Source: Balneolaceae bacterium (GTDB lineage: Bacteria; Bacteroidota; Rhodothermia; Balneolales; Balneolaceae). Taken from it: 64,000 nt of DNA. Below are positions 42,664 to 48,139 of the stretch, piece by piece (the first letter of the stretch is position 1; every line of letters starts with the position of its first letter). Made by a program: the position numbers and the translations under genes. The notes under the pieces were generated by a model. The model did not search any database, had not been told where the DNA came from, and was given only the letters and a program-made list of their open reading frames with translations. The stretch covers positions 2,256,976 to 2,320,975 of the forward strand of contig CP051242.1 in assembly GCA_017795005.1 (NCBI GenBank), written 5' to 3'.

Positions 42664-43638
42664 TTAAAACTCAAACTTCCCGACCGCAGCTTCACAGCCT
42701 TCCCAATTAATTCGGATATTTTCAGGATCAGATAAAGAATCTTCAGGGTCAAGTTTGCCTGGAAATCCAGTCCAACGTTCCGGACCATAAAAGTCACCCG
42801 TTTCTGCTTCCGGATCTGCACAACATCTTATGATACCGGTTGCTCCGTCTTCTGCAGACTGTGCGTTTTGCATTAATCCGGAATCTTTTTCCATCCCTCC
42901 TGTTTTGGCGGTGGTAACCTGAAGCTGTGTAGCTGCAAGTCCGGGATGAGCCAGTAAAACTTTGATATTCTCAATTCCATGCTCTTCCAGTTTCTCAATC
43001 AAACCATAGGTAAAAGCGCAATTTGCGAGTTTGGTTTGTCGGTACCGATACCATCTTGGTCCCTGGAAACTCATGTTTTCTTCTTCCGTGCCATCGCCTC
43101 CAAGGTCGCCGCCTCTTTGTTCGAAATACTTCATCTCCAGATCTGCCCCTAATCGAGCCATAGAAGAATGATTTACTATTCTTCCTTCTTTACTTTTTTT
43201 GAGTAATGGAAAAAGTCCGTTTGTAAGCAGAAAATGAGAAATGCAGTTGGTTTGAATTTGTACATCATAGCCGTCTTTGGTTGCCTGATCGGGCATAGCC
43301 ATTACTCCGGCGTTATTGCACAGCACGTCGAGCACATCAAACTCATTCGTTATTGTATTGATTGCAGAACGAACACTTTCAAAATCCTGCAAATCACACT
43401 CGACTTTATGAAAAATCCCTTCAGGTACTTCGTCTTTTAAAGATTCGAGTGCTGAGTCTGACCGATCACTTTTCCTGTTTAGTAACAGAACAGTAGCGCC
43501 CAGTTTTGCCATTTCTCTGGCACAGACATAGCCTGTTCCACTGGTTGTACCGGTAACAGCTACTACTTTTCCACTTATATCCTGAGTGTGATTATCAATT
43601 ACCGTTTGGAGATGTTTGGTTTCGATGGCAGCTGACAT
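42664..43638 (-). CDS. Short-chain dehydrogenase/reductase (retinol dehydrogenase-like)
   Basis: 324 residues. Rossmann motif VTGTTSGTGYVCAREMAKLGATV (about 29-51), NNAGVMA, Ser in IVNHSSMARLG and the catalytic Tyr-x-x-x-Lys in YRYRQTKLANC. It has the longer C-terminal region of RDH11/WWOX-like SDRs, ending around the PERWTGFPGKLD segment. An NADPH-dependent carbonyl reductase is likely; substrate unknown. It lies alone between repeats. Confidence 0.85.
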   Translation of the reverse strand: MSAAIETKHLQTVIDNHTQDISGKVVAVTGTTSGTGYVCAREMAKLGATVLLLNRKSDRSDSALESLKDEVPEGIFHKVECDLQDFESVRSAINTITNEFDVLDVLCNNAGVMAMPDQATKDGYDVQIQTNCISHFLLTNGLFPLLKKSKEGRIVNHSSMARLGADLEMKYFEQRGGDLGGDGTEEENMSFQGPRWYRYRQTKLANCAFTYGLIEKLEEHGIENIKVLLAHPGLAATQLQVTTAKTGGMEKDSGLMQNAQSAEDGATGIIRCCADPEAETGDFYGPERWTGFPGKLDPEDSLSDPENIRINWEGCEAAVGKFEF

Positions 43639-43763: not shown

Positions 43764-43880
43764 GTCATCCTGAGCGAAAGCGAACCTGCCTGTGGTAGGC
43801 AGGGGATCTGCAAAACTATTTAATAGGTTAGACTTTATTTCTGCAGATTCTTCGTCCCGATAAATCGGGATTAGAATGAC
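43764..43880. repeat. GTCAT/ATGAC-ended dispersed repeat (type A) with CCTGCC palindrome
   Basis: Starts GTCATCCTGAGCG, has inner arms GGATCTGCA / TGCAGATTC and ends GGGATTAGAATGAC. It also contains the small palindrome CCTGCCTGTGGTAGGCAGG, like the fragment beside tRNA-Leu. Confidence 0.75.
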
Positions 43881-43901: not shown

Positions 43902-44603
43902 TTAATCTGTTGAAGTGAATTTACCATTCTCCAAAAAATGAATTACCTGATTGATAACCTCCTCTTTTCTGAGGATAAAAGTATGAGATACGGGAACTTC
44001 CAGATGATCCTTCATACCTTCCAGTTTTGTACTTTCAACGGATACTTTGCCATCATCCGGATTTGGAAGCATGGTAGAAAGGATTGGATTCACCGTTTTA
44101 GTTCCTGCAATAATCCCAACTTCATAAGTTACAGGTCCCAAGCTTTTGGGAACACTGGAAGAATCCGTTCCAAGTTCTTGTCCGGCTGGACCGTTGATCC
44201 ACTCATACAAGATATTGTCTTTAAGTTCGTCTGTAATTTCACTCCCATTATTTGGCGGAGCCAGCATCACCACCCTTCCCAAAGTGGATAAGGAATCCGT
44301 GCTTAAATATTGACGAACAAGAATTCCGCCAAGAGAATGAGTAACGAAATGTATGGTGGAGGAATCCGGACATTCTTTGATGGATGTTGGTATTACCTTT
44401 CTGGCCAGAGAATCGATGGCGTATTTAGTAGATGGATAAGAATTATTGACCACCACATATCCACTATCGGAAAGTACGTGCTCCATTTTAGAAAAAGAAT
44501 ACTCACTCCGTGCCAGTCCATGTACTAAAACAACACAATCTGAAGCCTTAGACTGACCAAAAGGAAATAAAAAAATCAGGCACAGAAAAAATACTCTAAA
44601 CAT
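43902..44603 (-). CDS. Exported lipase-like alpha/beta hydrolase
   Basis: 233 residues with a Sec signal (residues 1-20). VVLVHGLARSEYSFSKM (oxyanion His-Gly), nucleophile elbow FVTHSLGGILVRQYL with Ser near residue 91, acid Asp in MLPNPDDGKVSVES and His in PVSHTFIL. It matches the short triacylglycerol-lipase-like family (PGAP1/LipA type) found in the periplasm. The elbow is T-H-S-L-G rather than G-H-S-L-G. Confidence 0.8.
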   Translation of the reverse strand: MFRVFFLCLIFLFPFGQSKASDCVVLVHGLARSEYSFSKMEHVLSDSGYVVVNNSYPSTKYAIDSLARKVIPTSIKECPDSSTIHFVTHSLGGILVRQYLSTDSLSTLGRVVMLAPPNNGSEITDELKDNILYEWINGPAGQELGTDSSSVPKSLGPVTYEVGIIAGTKTVNPILSTMLPNPDDGKVSVESTKLEGMKDHLEVPVSHTFILRKEEVINQVIHFLENGKFTSTD

Positions 44604-44666
44604 GGCAAAGGGATTTCATTCGAATCCCCTACGGAAGAAAACGAGAGTTGTTTAAGCCAGTTTAAT

Positions 44667-44766
44667 CTCGTTCCAAAGGTCTCCTTCGGAATGACGAGTT
44701 GAGGCTCTGCCTCATTGGAAGCAGAGCTTCCATGAATGCGTCACGCAGCAGAGCTACGTAACGAGG
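44667..44766. repeat. 100-bp CTCGTT dispersed repeat, copy 1 (type C)
   Basis: Starts CTCGTTCC and ends GTAACGAGG (inverted ends), with inner hairpins GAGGCTCTGCCTC and GCTCTG-type arms. A second 100-bp copy, differing at roughly ten positions by eye, is at 45232-45331. The rest of this 372-bp gap (44604-44975) holds a type A repeat and AT-rich sequence. Confidence 0.85.
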
Positions 44767-44789
44767 GGAAACAAAATCAACAAGTACTA

Positions 44790-44975: not shown

Positions 44976-45191
44976 TCAGACATCTTTTTTGGGATTGTTT
45001 ACAGAAAGCTTCTTAAAGATCAGGTTTACAACAAATAGTCCGGCAAAAATACAGAGGATCATTAACCCAACTTCAAGGATGTAATTAGACCAATAGTTCT
45101 CGAATGGATCTTCAATATCTAAAAAGGATTCATATACAATAATCCCAAGCAATGCCCCAAAGAAAGACTGAATAAACTGTTTTGTCTTCAT
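44976..45191 (-). CDS. Small two-TM protein, unknown function
   Basis: 71 residues with two hydrophobic helices (about 6-21 and 37-60) and an acidic loop. No family recognised. It lies just downstream, in the minus sense, of the truncated attC and repeat, so it might once have been a cassette gene; no attC follows it. Confidence 0.5.
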   Translation of the reverse strand: MKTKQFIQSFFGALLGIIVYESFLDIEDPFENYWSNYILEVGLMILCIFAGLFVVNLIFKKLSVNNPKKDV

Positions 45192-45231
45192 ATTTAGATT
45201 TTAAGTAAAAATTACTTATTTATTTTTTTAT

Positions 45232-45331
45232 CTCGTTCCGAAGGTCTCCTTCGGAACGACTAATTGAGGCTCTGCCTCATTGTAAGCAGAGCTTCCAGGT
45301 GTGCATCACGCAGCAGAGCTACGTGACGAGG
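45232..45331. repeat. 100-bp CTCGTT dispersed repeat, copy 2 (type C)
   Basis: Same ends and inner hairpins as 44667-44766. Its right end abuts, and replaces, one arm of an attC site. Confidence 0.85.
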
Positions 45332-45419
45332 AGAAGTAACTGATAATTTTATTGCTCACATGCTTGCCAGCAAATCCTACCTGCGTCGGACCTAAAACGC
45401 TTGTTATACCAATATTTAA
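45332..45419 (-). other. Truncated integron attC site of the two-TM cassette
   Basis: On the minus strand it begins with core GTATAAC (45413-45419) and an L-type arm AAGCGTTTTAGGTCCGACG, then an interior like that of the intact attC (GGATTTGC, GCAAGC, CAGTTACTT). The partner L and R arms are missing: sequence homology stops at 45332, where the 100-bp type C repeat starts. A site of this shape could not be folded into an attC hairpin. Confidence 0.65.
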
Positions 45420-45430
45420 TATTGAGTTTA

Positions 45431-45937
45431 TTAATTGATTCCATCTAAAACAATAGTTTCAATTTTATCTAATGCAAGCTCAAAATTATAGTTTGGTAAA
45501 TAAACCAAATACGTATCTGGTTCCCTTGAATCTCTCCTGAGGAGAATATCAAGTGTATCGTTTTTGGCTATAATGCTAACCAAATATTTGGTTTGAGGGC
45601 TCGATTTATTTGGGAAAATGAAGCCGTCGATTTCGGTTAAATCAATGAGCAGTTGTTCAGAATTAATATTCAAATCTTGTCCATTTATCAAGACTTTTGA
45701 CTCTGCTTGTAAAGCTAATTCAACAGTATCGTTAATCTTTGAACGAAGTAAATCTTTAATAGCTGCGTTGAGAAGCATTGTAAAAACAGCTGTCAAAAAG
45801 AGAAGCCCAAAACCAATAAGTACTTTGGTTATATGTTTAGATTTGAAGAATAGAAAAAAAGAAATGAACAAAACCCCAAATAAACCAAGAAATACATAAC
45901 TGATGTTTTGTCTTATGTCAATTAGAAGCTCAATCAT
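45431..45937 (-). CDS. Two-TM membrane protein encoded in an integron cassette
   Basis: 168 residues. Two hydrophobic helices at about residues 12-31 and 38-60, then a soluble domain ending NYNFELALDKIETIVLDGIN. No family recognised. The ATG lies 31 bp after cassette core GTTATAC (45968-45974), and the stop is 12 bp before the next attC core, which is the normal geometry of an integron gene cassette. Its function cannot be told from sequence; many cassette genes lack known homologues. Confidence 0.6.
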   Translation of the reverse strand: MIELLIDIRQNISYVFLGLFGVLFISFFLFFKSKHITKVLIGFGLLFLTAVFTMLLNAAIKDLLRSKINDTVELALQAESKVLINGQDLNINSEQLLIDLTEIDGFIFPNKSSPQTKYLVSIIAKNDTLDILLRRDSREPDTYLVYLPNYNFELALDKIETIVLDGIN

Positions 45938-45967
45938 GGTTAGGAGTAGAGAGACTTTGTGTCATTG

Positions 45968-46091
45968 GTATAACGACCCGGCGTTTAAGTGGTGCAGGTC
46001 CTCAATTTTTGTTAAAGTAACTGAATTAGTTCCTTGTCCACAAGCTTTCCGGCAAATCCTAACTGCGTCCGACTTGAAACGTATGTTAGGT
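45968..46091 (-). other. Integron attC recombination site (intact)
   Basis: 124 bp. Minus-strand ends are ACCTAAC and GTTATAC (RYYYAAC/GTTRRRY type cores; the second has a T at position 5). Within, CGTTTAAGT (+ strand, about 45982) pairs with ACTTGAAACG (about 46072) over 9 bp, leaving one extrahelical G, a hallmark of attC. The stop codon of the Imm63-like gene lies in the ACCTAAC core, as in many cassettes. Confidence 0.75.
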
Positions 46092-46592
46092 ACTTCTTGG
46101 ATACTTTTCATAAGCTAATTTACTTATTTCATGCTCAGGAAATCCTTGAGATCTTAATTCTGTAAAATAACTAGCTCTTATTGATGCCAAGTCATCAAAA
46201 GGTGCCTTATTTAAAATTTCTTTTTTCTCTTTTTCCAAAAGTAACCCCCAGTCTTCTTTTAATTCAGACAAAAGTTCAATTTGTTTTTTAAATAAAAGCC
46301 TTCTTGTGTCTTGACCCTCAATTCGATTTTCCAATTCAAAATACATTGCTACATGAAAAGTTAAATCTTTGCTTATCCAATAAAGTAATTCATCCTCTTT
46401 ATGAGTAGATCTTCTGCTGAACTCTCTACCTCTTTCAGATTTAACATAGTCATAGAATTTATAGCTGATTTCAATATGTGGAGTACCGTCACCTTTACTA
46501 CTTCCAATAGTAGGAAGGAATTCTAATTGCTCGAAACCAATTGCTTTAGCAATGTCTAACATAATCGTATTGAGCTGTTCCGAGTTTAGCAT
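46086..46592 (-). CDS. Imm63-like immunity protein encoded in an integron cassette
   Basis: 168 residues, cytoplasmic. The central part resembles the Imm63 immunity family: YVKSERGREFSRRSTHKEDELLYWISKDLTF, then YELENRIEGQDTRRLLFKKQIELLSEL. Imm63 proteins neutralise a contact-dependent or polymorphic toxin in the same cell. The ATG is 8 bp after cassette core GTTAGGT (46600-46606) and the TAA is in the attC, so it is the first cassette seen here. No toxin gene is beside it; orphan immunity genes are common in cassette arrays. Family recognition is from memory. Confidence 0.6.
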   Translation of the reverse strand: MLNSEQLNTIMLDIAKAIGFEQLEFLPTIGSSKGDGTPHIEISYKFYDYVKSERGREFSRRSTHKEDELLYWISKDLTFHVAMYFELENRIEGQDTRRLLFKKQIELLSELKEDWGLLLEKEKKEILNKAPFDDLASIRASYFTELRSQGFPEHEISKLAYEKYPRST

Positions 46593-46599
46593 GTGAAAT

Positions 46600-46606
46600 A
46601 CCTAAC
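46600..46606 (-). other. Cassette junction core site GTTAGGT
   Basis: The 7-bp GTTRRRY core on the minus strand, 8 bp before the Imm63-like ATG, matches the R core that ends the attC. Upstream (46607-46758) I find no attI, integrase or second attC. Confidence 0.6.
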
Positions 46607-46758
46607 ATAATATTATCCAACCAAGAATCGGGAATTAATTCTACTAACGCCAATTAAATCAAGGGTATTATAAGCGGATGTACTTTCAATAAAATCCCGA
46701 TAACCTTCCTCCTGTTTATTTCGTAGGTTCGGGTTGTTGTTAACCAAATTCTGAACTC

Positions 46759-46923
46759 ATGAGTATCATTCGAATCATTTGCGCCATTTTCCTTCCGCCC
46801 CTTGGCGTATTTCTTACCGTAGGACTAGGCGGAGCTTTCTGGCTGAATATTTTATTAACCCTTCTCGGCGGACTTCCCGGAATTATCCATGCCGTTTGGG
46901 TGATTGCCAAGCACGATAAATGA
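46759..46923 (+). CDS. PMP3/UPF0057-family small membrane protein
   Basis: 54 residues, too short for many gene finders. MSIIRIICAIFLPPLGVFLTVG, then LNILLTLLGGLPGIIHAVWVI, is the full PMP3/YqaE signature: two TM helices with FLPPLGVFL and the GxxPGxxHAxWVI motif. The family affects membrane potential or stress tolerance in yeast and plants; its bacterial role is unclear. It overlaps the aldo/keto reductase ATG by 4 bp (ATGA). Confidence 0.85.
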   Translation: MSIIRIICAIFLPPLGVFLTVGLGGAFWLNILLTLLGGLPGIIHAVWVIAKHDK

Positions 46924-47801
46924 AGTATAACCGACTCGGAACATCCGAACTGGAAGTATCTGAAGTCAGCTTCGGATGTATGTCGCTGGGAACCAATCAT
47001 TCCCAAAACGAACGTCTTCTACGATCTGCGGTAGATTCCGGAATCAATTTTTTCGACACAGCTGATTTGTACGACAAAGGCTGGAACGAGGAATCAGTCG
47101 GCAAAGCCCTTAAACCGGTGCGTGATCAGGTAGTCATAGCTACCAAAGTTGGAAACCAATGGCGAGCAGATGGTTCGGGTTGGGACTGGAATCCAACAAC
47201 AGCTTACATCCAAAAAGCCGTCGAAGAAAGCCTGAGACGGTTACAAACCGACCGAATCGATCTCTATCAATTGCACGGCGGGACCATTGAAGATCCCATA
47301 GATGAAAGCATCGAAGCCTTTGAGTTGCTGAAAGAACAGGGTAAAATCCGGGAATACGGCATCTCCTCTATTCGCCCGAATGTAATCAGGGAATGGATTC
47401 AAGGATCCAATATAGTCTCGGTAATGATGCAATATAGTTTACTCGACCGCCGACCCGAAGAACTCTGTCTGAACCTGCTTCATGAAAATAATATCTCGGT
47501 CATTACAAGGGGCAGTCTTGCCAAAGGACTATTAATTGATAAACCCCCAACGGCTTATCAGGGATATTCTGCTCAGGAGGTGAAACAACTTCAACGAGCC
47601 ATTCAAGAAACCGATAACCCTGTGTCAGCGGCGCTACAGTTTGTAACGAAACATCCTGCCGTTGCCAGTGCTGTGGTTGGAATCCGAATAGAAGAGCAAT
47701 TACAGAGTGTTCTTTCTTCGTTAGATGTCATTCTTTCTAATAAAGAACTTGCTGAACTGGCATCTGTTCTGGAACCGACGGTGTATGAAGTACATCGGTG
47801 A
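46920..47801 (+). CDS. Aldo/keto reductase
   Basis: 293 residues of the AKR barrel. YNRLGTSELEVSEVSFGCMSLG at the start, catalytic Asp-Tyr in FFDTADLYDKGWNEESVGKAL, Lys in VVIATKVGNQW, His in DLYQLHGGTIEDP, and the C-terminal NADPH clamp (VTKHPAVASAVVGIRIEEQL). Substrate unknown; resembles YajO/Tas-type bacterial AKRs. Its base composition is slightly more GC-rich than its neighbours, possibly reflecting transfer. Confidence 0.88.
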   Translation: MKYNRLGTSELEVSEVSFGCMSLGTNHSQNERLLRSAVDSGINFFDTADLYDKGWNEESVGKALKPVRDQVVIATKVGNQWRADGSGWDWNPTTAYIQKAVEESLRRLQTDRIDLYQLHGGTIEDPIDESIEAFELLKEQGKIREYGISSIRPNVIREWIQGSNIVSVMMQYSLLDRRPEELCLNLLHENNISVITRGSLAKGLLIDKPPTAYQGYSAQEVKQLQRAIQETDNPVSAALQFVTKHPAVASAVVGIRIEEQLQSVLSSLDVILSNKELAELASVLEPTVYEVHR

Positions 47802-47804
47802 TAA

Positions 47805-48047
47805 GTCTCCACTTGAGGGGAGATGAAAATCATCGTACAGATGATTTTATGAGGGTGTTTTAGTAAGCTAAGCTCACACAACACCCTCCGTCCTTAAGGT
47901 AGTTAATTGTCCCTCTTTGGAGAGGGACAGACTCAAAACCAGTTTTGAGTCAGGGAGAGGACGTCCATGGCTATTACTTTCGTAGCCACCTGTGTCCTCC
48001 CTCTGATTTAACGCAAGCGTTAAATCGGTCTCCCCCCAAGGGGAGAC
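47805..48047. repeat. GTCTCC composite dispersed repeat (type D, long copy)
   Basis: Ends GTCTCCACTTGAGGGGAGA and TCTCCCCCCAAGGGGAGAC are inverted. Between lie stacked palindromes (AAATCATC..GATGATTT; GGGTGTT..AACACCC; GACTCAAAACCAGTTTTGAGTC; GATTTAACGCAAGCGTTAAATC). The 338-bp gap 47802-48139 is otherwise featureless. Shorter copies of the same scheme are at 58214-58359 and 59815-59953. Confidence 0.75.
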
Positions 48048-48139
48048 AATACAAAACTCAATAGAATTACCATTAGTCTTTCCAAAATAGTATCATAAGG
48101 TTTATTATTTCATGTTACTTCCGCAAAATCATTCAACCC

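Follow-up and report, generated by a model that had tools for sequence, protein, structure and literature searches.

A gene cassette array that is headed by an attI site, recognised by homology, and that has no integrase gene of its own was identified in a Balneolaceae genome (contig CP051242.1), within the stretch of 64,000 nucleotides that we analysed (hereafter the window). We consider it very likely that this integrase-less, attI-headed array is what remains of a chromosomal integron, or of a satellite formerly supplied in trans by a chromosomal IntI. A preliminary description of the region had reported integron gene cassettes without an integrase (CALIN). The integrase-less cassettes are borne out, and the picture proved incomplete, as the attI, a third cassette, the location shared with a sister species and two more arrays in the genome had been missed.

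Array layout and attC sites

Read along the minus strand, the order is attI, cassette 1, attC 1, core GTTATAC, cassette 2, attC 2 remnant, a 110-bp repeat, cassette 3 and the repeat again, the three minus-strand cassette genes found among the window open reading frames all being in cassette orientation. The features are the following (window coordinates):

46920-47801: left flank beyond the Pmp3-like gene, aldo/keto reductase
46759-46923, plus strand: left flank, Pmp3-like small membrane protein, native chromosomal neighbour
46603-46624, minus strand: attI core of 22 bp (TTGGTTGGATAATATTATGTTA) that forms the left array end and stops at the first core
46600-46606, minus strand: recombination core GTTAGGT, junction of attI and cassette 1 (from sequence)
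46086-46592, minus strand: cassette 1, 168-aa Imm63-family protein (Pfam PF15599)
45968-46091, minus strand: attC 1, 124 nt, complete but weakened (held-out cmsearch match; poor fold)
45431-45937, minus strand: cassette 2, 168-aa predicted membrane protein of no family (open reading frame; Pfam matches below threshold only)
45336-45409, minus strand: attC 2, 5' remnant (R'', L'', centre) with the 3' half missing (identity to an intI-linked attC)
45226-45335, no strand: 110-bp dispersed repeat replacing the 3' half of attC 2 (second copy in the window)
44976-45191, minus strand: cassette 3, 71-aa predicted membrane protein (homologue in the LA399 integron)
44661-44770, no strand: second copy of the 110-bp repeat (89% identity), distal end of the recognisable array
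42664-43638, minus strand: right flank, short-chain dehydrogenase (right flank in the sister species too)

The core GTTAGGT that had been placed 8 bp before the Imm63-like ATG is present, at an actual spacing of 7 bp. attC 1 has R''=ACCTAAC and R'=GTTATAC, as seen in both sequence and model, the latter being the core noted earlier ahead of the second gene. As first described, the TAA stop of the Imm63 gene falls within R'', and the L stem (CGTTT+AAGT) is 9 bp long with one bulged base, a C on the cassette strand and the reported extrahelical G on the other.

The covariance model R1 was built from 42 attC sites of related genomes that adjoin true integron integrases; as a held-out test, the window's attC was kept out of the alignment. 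R1 called 45968-46091 on the minus strand with 65.4 bits (E=3e-13) as its sole match in the window. Genome-wide, the scores were 65, 60 and 39 bits, the next being 17, and the other confident matches were confined to two further cassette clusters rather than to a repeat lying away from genes. The held-out E-value and this score gap show attC 1 to be a genuine site, one of the attC family of Balneolaceae integrons. In the 42-site alignment, the R and L arms are paired in 96% of cells, with arm covariation at 12 pairs and 116 cells changed on both sides, versus 8 and 32 in shuffles. A simple search recovered attC-like arrays beside the integron integrases of relatives and almost none in shuffled sequence, and attCs are present in 72 of the 92 family genomes. 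A pattern search for GTTAGGT alone was uninformative, and genome-wide statements on the window's genome rest on model searches. A plasmid search using an attC as query gave no matches.

Folding of 45968-46091 as single-stranded DNA, a check put forward in the preliminary description, did not return the attC hairpin: unconstrained, it performed no better than shuffles (z about -0.4). Taken by itself this would favour the cores and arms being ordinary sequence or a dispersed repeat, of no integron origin. Single-site DNA folding was not counted as evidence, and such a coincidence is extremely improbable given that the E-value comes from a model built without the site, that the next genome matches drop as described above and that closely related attCs sit in arrays adjoining intI in relatives.

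The second attC proposed earlier does begin after the second gene, at 45409, and proved to be a 5' remnant only, cut by the 110-bp repeat. Over 75 nt it shares about 91% identity with an intI-linked attC (L039:9775-9898), and over 64 nt 77% with attC 1. The remnant gets no R1 call, one full attC being called in the window, and no attC was found there with R1 after cassette 3.

The attI boundary and the integrase search

Hereafter, G000 is the window's genome and G001 that of the sister species, the genus sample comprising three genomes. In Gracilimonas amylolytica LA399 (L038), the sequence running from intI to the first cassette ends with CCCTTGTTCGGATAATATTATGTTAGGC; the left boundary of the window array reads TTGGTTGGATAATATTATGTTAGGT and that of G001 TTGTTCGGATAATATTATGTTATGT. 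The window 22-mer has 2 mismatches against the intI-linked LA399 attI (L038:3978) and the G001 22-mer matches it exactly, related attI sites showing 0-2 mismatches among themselves. Over 832 kb of fetched sequence, matches with 0-3 mismatches were the attIs of intI loci, array heads and one attI-like site inside a G005 array, and unrelated matches had 6-7 mismatches. Although no attI had been visible in the preliminary description, the left boundary is, by homology, an attI shared with intI-bearing relatives, in which about 186 bp separate the linked copies from the start of intI (L038, L040, L138). Additional similarity upstream of the G001 C5 attI (GGGATTTTATC) was rejected because it falls in the end of a neighbouring gene. 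A second attI-like core was seen at L036:10009 (minus strand, G005), inside the array of an intI-bearing integron and about 6 kb from intI.

The reported absence of intI holds for the window and for the complete genome, a single contig of 3.75 Mb (99.5% complete) in which no protein reaches the TIGR02249 cut-off. Its best match (1.1e-22) covers profile positions 244-301 only, as expected for XerC/D; 14 control genomes also match the profile loosely, none over the cut-off, and matches over the cut-off were found in relatives. At E<=1e-40, intI was found in none of the three genomes of the genus and in 50 of the 92 family genomes. Of the components of a complete integron, the window locus would thus retain the attI, assigned by homology, and lack the intI gene.

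These observations are best accounted for by an IntI that recognised this attI and inserted cassettes between G and TTA through the folded bottom strand of attC. The intI gene would later have been lost from the genus, after which the sites would have decayed by point mutation and repeat insertion. Some points weigh against this best reading: no intI relic was found beside the window attI, only the last 22-30 bp are clearly homologous to intI-linked attI, and in relatives that carry both intI and the reductase gene on one contig (G005, G060, G077) the two are separated by at least 396 kb. It is because of this distance, and because intI-less attI arrays are frequent (see below), that a satellite origin is kept beside that of a full chromosomal integron.

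The distance of the locus from intI in relatives would also be expected if an IntI acting in trans had put cassettes into an ordinary attG site beside the Pmp3-like gene, attI never being involved. CALINs are known to arise by such insertion (Loot et al. 2024, as cited in PMC12444791), and the two other arrays of the window's genome, near pepP and near metK, have heads without this attI. It was our earlier working hypothesis, given flanks unlinked to intI in relatives, and was set aside when the boundary was found to be the LA399 attI. An attG insertion is recognised by a boundary that is neither attI nor attC, whereas here the 22 bp differ from a true attI by 2 mismatches (0 in the sister species), against at least 6 for unrelated matches in the 832 kb. 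An attG could resemble attI this closely only by coincidence or through a very strict site preference, and we regard this origin as unlikely.

Cassette contents, decay and the sister species

The cassette 1 protein matches Imm63 (PF15599) with E=3.4e-21 and 75.7 bits, the gathering cut-off being 26.7, and no partner toxin gene occurs within the array. Going by the family name, it probably protects against the toxin of a competitor. The preliminary description had suggested looking for the same cassettes in relatives; no homologue of the Imm63 cassette was found in the 91 other family genomes, nor any close relative outside the window's genome among 84,980 species genomes, and none of the tested cassette genes of this genome has a homologue in the G001 arrays. 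In the LA399 integron, the gene of the first cassette (L038:4054-4266) is homologous to cassette 3 (71 aa), with 41% identity over the full length of the latter. An intI-less G001 array (L089:8027-8547) and an intI-bearing array of another genus (G018; L040:8314-8547) have in common a near-identical 77-aa antitoxin-like cassette gene, followed in G001 by a possible ParE/RelE-type partner; this is evidence that cassettes move between genera. Beside the window array, a gene coding for a 233-aa alpha/beta-hydrolase-like protein (43902-44603, minus strand) is absent from G001 and G002, and in genus g17 (G018, G059, G061) homologues with 70-74% identity are located at roughly 5-25 kb from integron arrays. 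The window also contains a pair of matches to the whalefall-1 RNA (RF01762; 47907-47962, plus strand, 63.6 bits; 47994-48049, minus strand, 75 bits), facing each other about 31 bp apart.

The earlier description of attC 1 as an intact 124-bp site holds for its length, its R cores and the completeness of its sequence, and not for its intactness. In the R1 alignment, 3 of its 20 model pairs are non-standard, and its recombinogenic strand has only 2.5 predicted arm-to-arm pairs. The corresponding values are 0.8 and 4.3 for the two other called attCs of the genome, 9-23 for those of G001 and about 15-25 for most intI-linked sites. attC 2 is interrupted by the 110-bp repeat, whose window copies (45226-45335 and 44661-44770) are 89% identical, and an element resembling it terminates the syntenic array in G001. 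With a poor predicted fold in attC 1, a cut attC 2 and no attC after cassette 3, the array is, to judge from its sequence, decaying.

Other elements were seen at attC sites. A 19-bp palindrome (CCTGCCTACCGCAGGCAGG) has only 7 copies in the genome, with up to 2 mismatches, and none in G001 or G002; its sites include L035:8763, L035:9315 and L087:6481 in G000 and 43785-43803 (minus strand) in the window. Three copies lie in attC L' arms at the identical position CCGC^TTAAAC, two near pepP and one near metK, and the remaining ones occupy a different dispersed hairpin repeat (GATTC/GATCC^TT). The palindrome has the appearance of a very small mobile element with a preference for hairpin-forming sites. 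In G001, an attC is split at L065:4060-4660 by an insert with a gene for a 96-aa GIY-YIG endonuclease, and a near-identical gene is found in the C5 array (L092:4737-5243), adjoining another broken attC.

In G001, the same spot, from the Pmp3-like/reductase pair to the dehydrogenase (85% identical; L065:5557-6528), harbours an array that shares the attI and carries different cassettes. The core at the attI junction is GTTATGT, and the sequence diverges from that of the window from there onward. The Pmp3-like gene adjoins the reductase in other genera too, where no attC accompanies the pair. A second array, downstream of metK, occupies the same position in both genomes (L087, L088) with different contents, and the third array of the window's genome, after pepP, is absent from G001 and G002. 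Arrays at the same positions with different contents indicate that cassettes turned over, or were differentially lost, though no genome of the genus has an integrase.

An array still served by an integrase on a plasmid or another unsampled source, its cassettes still turning over, would account for the complete difference in cassettes at two orthologous loci between G000 and G001, both without intI, and for the G001 attCs that still fold well. We find this improbable, as the attCs are weakened or interrupted in the window's genome, and differential loss from longer ancestral arrays suffices without current activity.

Integrase-less arrays across the family and known systems

A scan of 84,980 species genomes with the attI core returned 23 loci, of which 19 belong to records under the names Balneolaceae, Balneola or Gracilimonas; the matches in three unrelated taxa (Maribellus, Flavobacterium and a Bacteroidetes MAG) have no attC. 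Ten attI loci (L134, L136, L140, L142, L144, L145, L147, L151, L152 and L156) have a correctly oriented attC 295-2189 bp downstream and no intI in the 1.1-6.4 kb upstream. For several, intI is elsewhere in the genome, as in LA399 (L151 versus L153) and HXMU1428-10 (L142 and L152 versus L138); UBA3186 has the intI-less attI array L145, and intI in G018. In L137, the intI next to the attI is truncated after about 40 residues, an integrase captured in the course of its decay. We tentatively propose, as a possibility that for now we would not favour, that Balneolaceae run distributed integrons, in which one integrase serves several attI-headed arrays across the chromosome and the arrays persist at fixed positions, sometimes after integrase loss; the window would then be a satellite in a genus without integrase.

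CALINs are common, and whether they arose by integrase loss or by off-site insertion is usually undecidable; the conserved attI lets these two origins be told apart here. Since the family includes genomes with intI, genomes free of it and genomes with several arrays, it becomes testable how arrays multiply, how long cassettes persist once no integrase is present, and whether several attI sites of one chromosome can be fed by a single integrase. CALINs as such are known; it is less expected that a family should have, at conserved positions, attI-headed arrays that lack an integrase of their own. Our searches of the open-access literature turned up neither an account of a genome with several attI-headed arrays nor one of integrons in Balneola, which is weak evidence of absence.

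CALINs have been defined, counted and proposed to be degraded integrons (IntegronFinder, PMC9024848). Like them, the window locus has attC and cassette genes with no integrase nearby or in the genome, and unlike them it keeps an attI at its head; its one complete attC is one below the IntegronFinder 2 default of two. In Xanthomonas, CALINs occupy a few fixed loci away from intI and were interpreted as vestiges of ancestral activity, in contrast to attG insertions, which are scattered (PMC12444791). The Balneolaceae arrays resemble these in being intI-less arrays at a few fixed chromosomal positions common to species, and differ in that several carry attI and that the whole sampled genus (three genomes) is without intI. 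The chromosomal integron of LA399 (NZ_PQBS01000010.1; G032, L038, L153) shares with the window the attI core, the attC family and a homologous 71-aa cassette, and differs from it by an intact intI 187 bp from attI.
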